Assembly: GCF_000332175.1 (NCBI RefSeq)
Contig: NZ_KB235914.1
Location: 2,352,868 to 2,416,867, forward strand
Direction of reading: 5' to 3'
Origin: Pseudanabaena sp. PCC 6802
GTDB lineage: Bacteria; Cyanobacteriota; Cyanobacteriia; Pseudanabaenales; Pseudanabaenaceae
Length of the DNA stretch: 64,000 nucleotides
Shown here piece after piece: positions 6,289-62,741 of this stretch. The notes beneath the pieces were generated by a model. The model did not search any database and had not been told where the DNA came from. It saw only the letters and a list, made by a program, of their open reading frames with translations. Each line of letters starts with the position of its first letter. Position 1 is the first letter of the stretch. A program made the position numbers and the translations under genes.

Positions 6289-6840
6289 CTATCGCTTTTT
6301 AACCTGCATGGCGATCGCTTCCTTTACCGCGCCAAAATCAATCAGAACGAGTTTGCCATCAACCCGACGACGCATCAGATTTTGCGGTTTGATATCGCGA
6401 TGGATAATATTTTGCCGATGCACGAATGAGAGAATTTCCAAAATCTCTCGCAATAGGTTTACGACATCGCTTTCCTGCCACGGCTGACCGGGAAGAATCT
6501 CAGTACTGAGGTCTTCGCCATCGATTAGCTCTTGAATCAGATAGAATTCGTTATTTTCTGGGAAGTATAGCGTTTTTCAATTGAGAACAGGTTTTATTGA
6601 TAGGGTGAAGGGGTTCCACCCCTTCTTGGGGGCAACGCCCCCAAACCCCCTTCTCGTTTTCATCTGAAAACCGCTATAGGCAGAGAGCGTAAGGGATGCG
6701 ATCGTAGTTTTTGACCGAGCCTGTAAAGAAATTCCCCTTCCTGTTGAAACAAGCGCACGATTTCAGGTGAGATCGCCTGTGGCTGCAACCGCTTCACCAC
6801 GCATCTGGGTTTGGGGTTAATCGGTATATGCAAATCCAAT
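6289..6840 (-). pseudogene. Ser/Thr protein kinase remnant split by a miniature element
   Basis: Reading the minus strand gives two kinase segments. The N-lobe part (about 6840 to 6680) reads PRCVVKRLQPQAISPEIVRLFQQ and on to LRSHP, with the ATP-binding lysine in VVKR. The C-lobe part (about 6567 to 6289) reads FPENNEFYLIQELIDGEDL, then HRDIKPQNLM with the catalytic loop and LIDFGAVKEA with the metal-binding DFG, then a stop. Between them is the 111-bp element at 6568. The glycine-rich loop, everything after DFG and any start codon are missing, and the two halves are not in frame once the element is removed. The gene is dead. Confidence 0.88.
6568..6678. mobile_element. Miniature inverted-repeat element, type 1 short copy, inside kinase pseudogene
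   Basis: A 111-bp element with terminal inverted repeats TATAGCG(G)TTTTCA / TGAAAACCGCTATA. The centre can fold: GGGGTTCCACCCC and GGGGGCAACGCCCCC. It holds no open reading frame of its own. Near-identical DNA lies at 45087, and longer versions with the same ends at 41825 and 62583. TA at both ends suggests TA target duplication as in IS630/Tc1-type elements (inference). Confidence 0.85.
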
Positions 6841-7104
6841 GAATTTTACCATTTCGCCTCGTAGGAATGGCGTGGTTGCTTGCTCTAAAAGGGTACTTTT
6901 GGAGTTCCCCCCTTGATAAGGGGGGCTAGGGGAGATCTTGCATTTCAGCATTCAATGCGTAAGTCCTAAACTATTTAGGGCAGGGTTCGACTGTCTCGCA
7001 GAAAAGCCAATAAAATGTTGTTATTAGGATTAAACCTAAGGCATATTAGTTTGCACTAGTTTGCACTATAAAAGCTGGCACCAAGTAAAGGCTAAGTCTA
7101 ATTT
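6841..7104. other. Intergenic stretch with C/G hairpin and short direct repeat
   Basis: No gene seen. At 6907-6925 a stem of CCCCCCTT/AAGGGGGG with a GAT loop belongs to a short repeat type common in cyanobacterial intergenic DNA. At about 7050-7070 TAGTTTGCAC occurs twice in direct tandem just before CTATAAAAG, which could be the promoter of the protease gene at 7105 with a repeated activator site; this is a guess. Confidence 0.5.
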
Positions 7105-41824: not shown

Positions 41825-41978
41825 TATAGCGGTTTTCAGATCGGTGGTGAGCAGGGGGTTTGGGGGCGTTGCCCCCAAGAAGGGGAGGCAGGGCGGTCTT
41901 GGGGGTTCCCCGCTAGAGCCACTGCCGTGTGGAACCCACCCCATCAATAAAACCCGTTCTCAAGTGAAAACCGCTATA
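41825..41978. mobile_element. Miniature inverted-repeat element, type 1 long copy
   Basis: 154 bp from TATAGCGGTTTTCAG to TGAAAACCGCTATA, so the termini are exact inverted repeats of 14 bp. The inside carries GGGGGCGTTGCCCCC and an extra piece (about 45 bp) with GAGGCAGGGCGGTCTTGGG that is missing from the short copies at 6568 and 45087. It is inverted relative to 62583. It lies 45 bp before ccaA. Confidence 0.85.
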
Positions 41979-45086: not shown

Positions 45087-45199
45087 TATAGCATTTTGCA
45101 ATTGAGAAAGGGGTTAGTTTATGGGGTGAAGGGGTTCCACCCCTTCTTGGGGGCAACGCCCCCAAACCCCCTTCTCGTTTTCATCTGACAACCGCTATA
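45087..45199. mobile_element. Miniature inverted-repeat element, type 1 short copy
   Basis: 113 bp, with the same interior as the copy at 6568 (GGGGTTCCACCCCTTCTTGG, GGGGGCAACGCCCCC, CCCTTCTCGTTTTCATCTGA). The left end TATAGCATTTTGCAATTGAG is decayed; the right end is TGACAACCGCTATA. Only two bases separate it from the type 2 element at 45202. Confidence 0.82.
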
Positions 45200-62582: not shown

Positions 62583-62741
62583 TATAGCGGTTTTTACTTG
62601 AAAACGGGTTTTATTTTTGGGGTGGAGGGGTTCCACACGGCAGTGGTTCTAGCGGGGAACCCCCAAGACCGTCCTGCCTCCCCTTCTTGGGGGCATTGCC
62701 CCCAGCCCCCTCTACTCACCTCCAATCTAAAAACCGCTATA
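62583..62741. mobile_element. Miniature inverted-repeat element, type 1 long copy
   Basis: 159 bp from TATAGCGGTTTTTA to TAAAAACCGCTATA; the ends are exact 14-bp inverted repeats. The inside has the extra block CACGGCAGTGGTTCTAGCGG / AGACCGTCCTGCCTCC and GGGGGCATTGCCCCC. It is the opposite orientation of the copy at 41825. It starts 34 bp upstream of the crp/fnr-type gene's start. Confidence 0.85.

Follow-up and report, generated by a model that had tools for sequence, protein, structure and literature searches.

A MITE with IS630-type ends in a kinase pseudogene fragment of Pseudanabaena sp. PCC 6802

In a 64,000-nucleotide stretch of the Pseudanabaena sp. PCC 6802 genome (contig NZ_KB235914.1, positions 2,352,868 to 2,416,867, forward strand; hereafter the window), a MITE separates the two parts of a kinase sequence. 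This MITE very probably moved by means of its IS630-type ends and inserted at a TA dinucleotide in a kinase sequence that carries independent lesions. Mobility of the element family is supported by an uninterrupted kinase paralogue and other empty sites, and by an insertion sequence (IS) with the same ends, whose family has moved in a related genus. Besides the element, this recent pseudogene fragment of a kinase carries at least three lesions, namely the loss of both ends and a net 2-nt frame error. An insertion into a fragment that had already lost its function is no less likely than a first hit on a gene.

Results

The element belongs to the short subfamily of the MITE and occupies positions 6568-6676 of the window (109 bp, TAGCG...CGCTA), with the family orientation on the minus strand. 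One TA is found on either side (6566-6567 and 6677-6678), giving a net insertion of 111 bp (109-bp element plus duplicated TA) that interrupts the AYF-motif tyrosine codon of the kinase remnant. With the TA included, the inverted repeats are 14 bp long (consensus TATAGCG(G/T)TTTTCA) and differ from each other by one mismatch; TATAGCGTTTTTCA on the plus strand at 6566-6579 has one mismatch to the family end, and TATAGCGGTTTTCA on the minus strand at 6665-6678 matches it exactly. Compared with a consensus built from 46 aligned short copies, the element has three differences; two differing bases are adjacent and absent from its six nearest copies. No ORF of transposase size was found in the 109-113 bp short form in the window or in the long form of ~157 bp, and Rfam and tRNA scans of the window gave no match. 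The element is predicted to fold into a branched hairpin whose stability greatly exceeds that of shuffled sequence (z-scores of -7.5 as DNA and -6.1 as RNA; none of 200 shuffles was as stable). Such strong folding would also suit a structural or regulatory, REP-like palindrome that only resembles an insertion, an explanation that is scarcely credible in view of the clean, TA-duplicating empty sites and the IS630 element with the same ends described below.

The kinase remnant lies on the minus strand. Its 3′ part (6289-6567) contains HRDIKPQN and DFG, ends shortly after DFGAVK, and matched Pkinase PF00069 with an E-value of 1.4e-17. The 5′ part (6679-6839) contains the VVKR lysine and no glycine-rich loop; searched alone, it gave no Pfam match, and it was alignable with 108 kinase homologues. 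The preliminary description, in which kinase halves with these three motifs flank an inverted-repeat element of 111 bp, was thus borne out. The remnant is truncated at both ends and does not make up a complete Pkinase catalytic domain, as the N-terminus with the glycine-rich loop and everything after DFGAVK are gone. Outside 6289-6839, comparison with the paralogue L103 revealed no kinase remains above shuffled sequence (119 of 500 shuffles were as good upstream and 394 of 500 downstream). Another interspersed repeat is located at 6887-6969, ~48 bp from the remnant, and is 94% identical to C1:254037-254119 and 90% identical to C1:297449-297521.

We also counted directly how far the LG glycine codon lies from the tyrosine codon. 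The distance was 38 nt in the remnant (6679-6716) vs 36 nt in 92 and 33 nt in 17 of the 109 homologues (12 or 11 codons), which places a net frame error of 2 nt just upstream of the insertion. With its net length of 111 bp divisible by 3, the insertion does not account for the broken frame. The earlier statement that the frame stays shifted once the element is removed was therefore correct; its corollary, that the gene went on decaying once the element had inserted, is not warranted, because the frame error and the truncations could predate or postdate the element. The tyrosine at the insertion point is a minority residue among the 109 homologues (H in 95, Y in 11, and F, S, and N in one each). 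Of the 54 alignment columns with at least 90% conservation across 108 homologues, four are altered in the remnant and five in the intact L103, indicating that inactivation of the kinase was recent.

We then turned to the genomic setting. In neighborhoods of the M50-peptidase gene that adjoins the kinase remnant (30 loci including the window's own, from 38 matching genomes; three of the relatives' loci were shortened by contig ends), no kinase, pentapeptide, or lpxB match was found beside the M50-peptidase gene at the 29 relatives' loci, up to ~1.5 kb. A syntenic orthologue of the kinase, and hence an orthologous empty site, was accordingly not found at these loci. One scan of the genome contigs for an intact kinase closer than L103 gave a best match of only 63% identity, leaving L103 as the nearest kinase found.

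These observations bear on the order of events. Both ends of the kinase domain are gone with no detectable remains alongside, and the 29 relatives' loci give no sign of an ancestral intact gene here; we therefore lean toward the interpretation that the element landed in a dead, truncated kinase fragment of no further importance, with the reservation that the near absence of coding decay indicates a fragment not long dead before the insertion. That the MITE inactivated an intact kinase gene, with the truncations and the frame error following later, is possible but rather doubtful: the 50 of 54 conserved columns retained and the closeness of the element to its subfamily consensus make both events recent, as this order would have it, but the other lesions by themselves would inactivate the gene.

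Next, empty sites were sought. The paralogue L103 (C5:1272855-1273280) is intact, with a 660-aa open frame and 68-69% amino-acid identity to the remnant. Its sequence is uninterrupted, with only one TA at the AYF tyrosine codon. The empty-site comparison proposed in the preliminary description thus demonstrated the TA duplication, with the empty site supplied by a paralogue of ~69% identity instead of an orthologue. Elsewhere in the genome, the copy at C1:440313 has an empty counterpart at C1:441844-442042 (92%, single TA), and it is located where an incomplete duplicate of a 287-aa gene ends, i.e., again in a fragment, which also speaks against a first hit on an intact kinase gene. The empty site for the copy at C1:297099 matched at 95% over 64 nt, and that for the copy at C1:194936 matched at 71% at ten places on C1. 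Including the window element and L103, four of seven own-genome candidates, hand-picked from 53 spanning rows (92 sites; many rows were self matches or one-site repeats), were clear, and the other three were ragged or had no TA at the aligned point. A REP-like or regulatory palindrome without mobility was rejected on account of the empty sites.

The element belongs to a large family. Allowing at most one mismatch, 580 TATAGCGGTTTTCA ends (297+283) were counted in the 5.62-Mb genome vs 2+2 for the reversed control, far above chance. At least 40 family copies are 92-100% identical over 112-123 of 123 nt (40 of 505 candidates were scored). Within the window, two long-form relatives (41825-41978, 154 bp; 62583-62741, 159 bp) and a short-form relative with decayed ends (45087-45199, 113 bp) are present. 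Exact TATAGCGGTTTTCA ends occur in 26 of 38 genomes of the cyanobacterial family, with 332 in the Pseudanabaena sp. PCC 6802 genome, 122 in G013, 117 in G012, and 35 in G030. Elements of 98-105 bp with TATAGCGGTTTTCA ends were found in G010 (three), G012 (one), and G009 (one); they have these ends in common with the window MITE but an unrelated interior, and thus represent another MITE with the same ends.

The position of family members relative to genes was assessed on C1:1-792200 (792 kb), using 41 end pairs 28-170 bp apart, at least three of which (566460, 577669, and 639586) are doubtful members. Proxy genes, defined as ORFs of at least 100 aa and not equivalent to a true annotation, covered 84% of this sample. 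Nevertheless, 35 of the 41 elements were intergenic, four overlapped the end of a proxy gene, and two lay inside one, in a count that partly misses ORFs broken by an element. Most family copies avoid genes. This intergenic bias agrees with insertion into a dead kinase fragment and is a further point against inactivation of an intact gene.

Several other features were noted among the repeats. A second element type with TATAGCCGTATGCA ends is present at C1:566460-566491 and C1:577669-577773, and the sequence beside the latter has many partial matches on C1. Two copies 13.7 kb apart (C1:672932-673044 and C1:686649-686761) are identical together with their flanking bases, as if a segmental duplication had taken the element with it. 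Hairpin loops occur in both orientations among like-oriented MITE copies (e.g., C1:22943 and C1:119729). Among 60 oriented copies, in a set partly chosen by likeness to the window copy, GTT and AAC loops numbered 50 vs 4, and TGGAA and TTCCA loops in short copies numbered 17 vs 10. The two orientations suggest that loops were inverted through template switching or through resolution of hairpins; no matching account of loop inversion was found in the literature.

We also identified nine 30-bp palindromes that consist of two overlapping element ends, TATAGCGGTTTTCA-GA-TGAAAACCGCTATA and close variants (L280-L288; C1:261916-261945 and C5:97622, 230616, 1732878, 4474905, 1949016, 2528594, 112228, and 3100552). 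Five are identical and four have one or two mismatches, and the flanks are unrelated at all nine places. With at most one mismatch, the palindrome was absent from the other 37 genomes of the family. In the search for empty sites, the spanning matches were the nine places themselves only, among at most ten candidates scored per genome. The 30-bp copies may have arisen by deletion between short TGAAAAC repeats, or they may be mobile elements of minimal size. That they were moved by the IS630 transposase as minimal transposons of two overlapping ends appears unlikely.

Finally, a source of transposase was examined. The genome has 16 DDE_3 matches, and one of them, L088, is bracketed by a pair of exact TATAGCGGTTTTCA ends that span 1022 bp (L088:1006-2027; C5 near 1425000). 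Two ends are likewise present near L089, where they are arranged outward. L088 has two overlapping transposase frames with HTH domains and DDE_3. The two frames matched NCBIfam transpos_IS630 (NF033545) with E-values of 5.1e-36 and 1.7e-18, although the N-terminal frame alone is under the NCBIfam cut-off (67.1 vs 100 bits), and PF13358 matched at 3.2e-33. The IS and the MITE have identical 25-bp ends, and their likeness stops at ~25 terminal bases (the first 45 bases were compared by eye). Judged from sequence, the MITE fits type II, in which the likeness to an IS is confined to the ends.

An IS630 element with these ends is present as a single copy in the Pseudanabaena sp. PCC 6802 genome. 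By contrast, G011, of a related genus, contains seven 1022-bp copies with 99.9-100% mutual identity and 66% identity to L088, and these share with L088 both the ends and the A9C run, including its position. Joined flanks were prepared for the seven G011 copies, and five sites were searched in relatives; junction-spanning matches of 89-96% identity were obtained at all five, with TA at four and TG at the fifth. TA target duplication by the likely IS630 helper was thus observed in its G011 homologue. In the IS630 elements L088 and L183-L189, a conserved A9C run lies between the two transposase frames. From its position, this run is likely a frameshift or slippage site that fuses the two frames; frameshifting has been reported for the IS630 family, which has two overlapping frames, in passages of PMC5009743.

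Discussion

The proposed course of events is as follows. The MITE ends would be recognized by an IS630-family (Tc1/mariner-like, DDE_3) transposase, for which L088 is the candidate helper, probably acting on the MITE in trans once slippage on the A9 run has fused the two L088 reading frames. Cut-and-paste insertion of a MITE copy at a TA dinucleotide inside the kinase sequence would then have duplicated the TA, presumably recently. The preliminary description held that the element was or is mobile and can break genes. Its mobility is upheld by the empty sites and the IS with the same ends; the evidence for gene breaking is weaker, since the host sequence lacks the two ends of the kinase domain and the copy at C1:440313, with its clear empty site, is likewise in a partial gene duplicate.

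MITEs have been described in cyanobacterial pseudogenes before. In Anabaena sp. 90, as described in parts of PMC3542288, 147 MITE copies were counted, 132 of them intergenic and 15 within disrupted ORFs called pseudogenes. The two cases are alike in having many small inverted-repeat copies, mostly intergenic, with some in broken ORFs. They are set apart by description, in that the same parts of PMC3542288 report no evident likeness of the Anabaena sp. 90 MITEs to IS ends, whereas here an IS630 element has the same ends. Passages of PMC10969869 mention MITE inactivation of cyanobacterial genes and give a MITE size range of 50-500 bp, with QMITE1 copies down to 39 bp. Nezha, in the reference list of PMC10969869, is an active cyanobacterial MITE according to its title. 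The IS630 family (NF033545, DDE_3; Tc1/mariner relatives) shares TA target duplication and inverted ends with the MITE, but it codes for a transposase, whereas the MITE codes for nothing and the common part is limited to ~25 terminal bases. No published MITE from Pseudanabaena or this cyanobacterial lineage was found in the literature.

The broken kinase itself is ordinary mobile-element debris. The surrounding evidence provides a clean set for a large cyanobacterial MITE family, comprising its ends, its TA duplication, empty sites, and a likely helper IS. If the 30-bp copies are indeed mobile, they would be transposons shorter than the 39-bp copies that are the shortest case in the passages of PMC10969869, and would help to delimit the smallest substrate that a Tc1/mariner-type transposase accepts.
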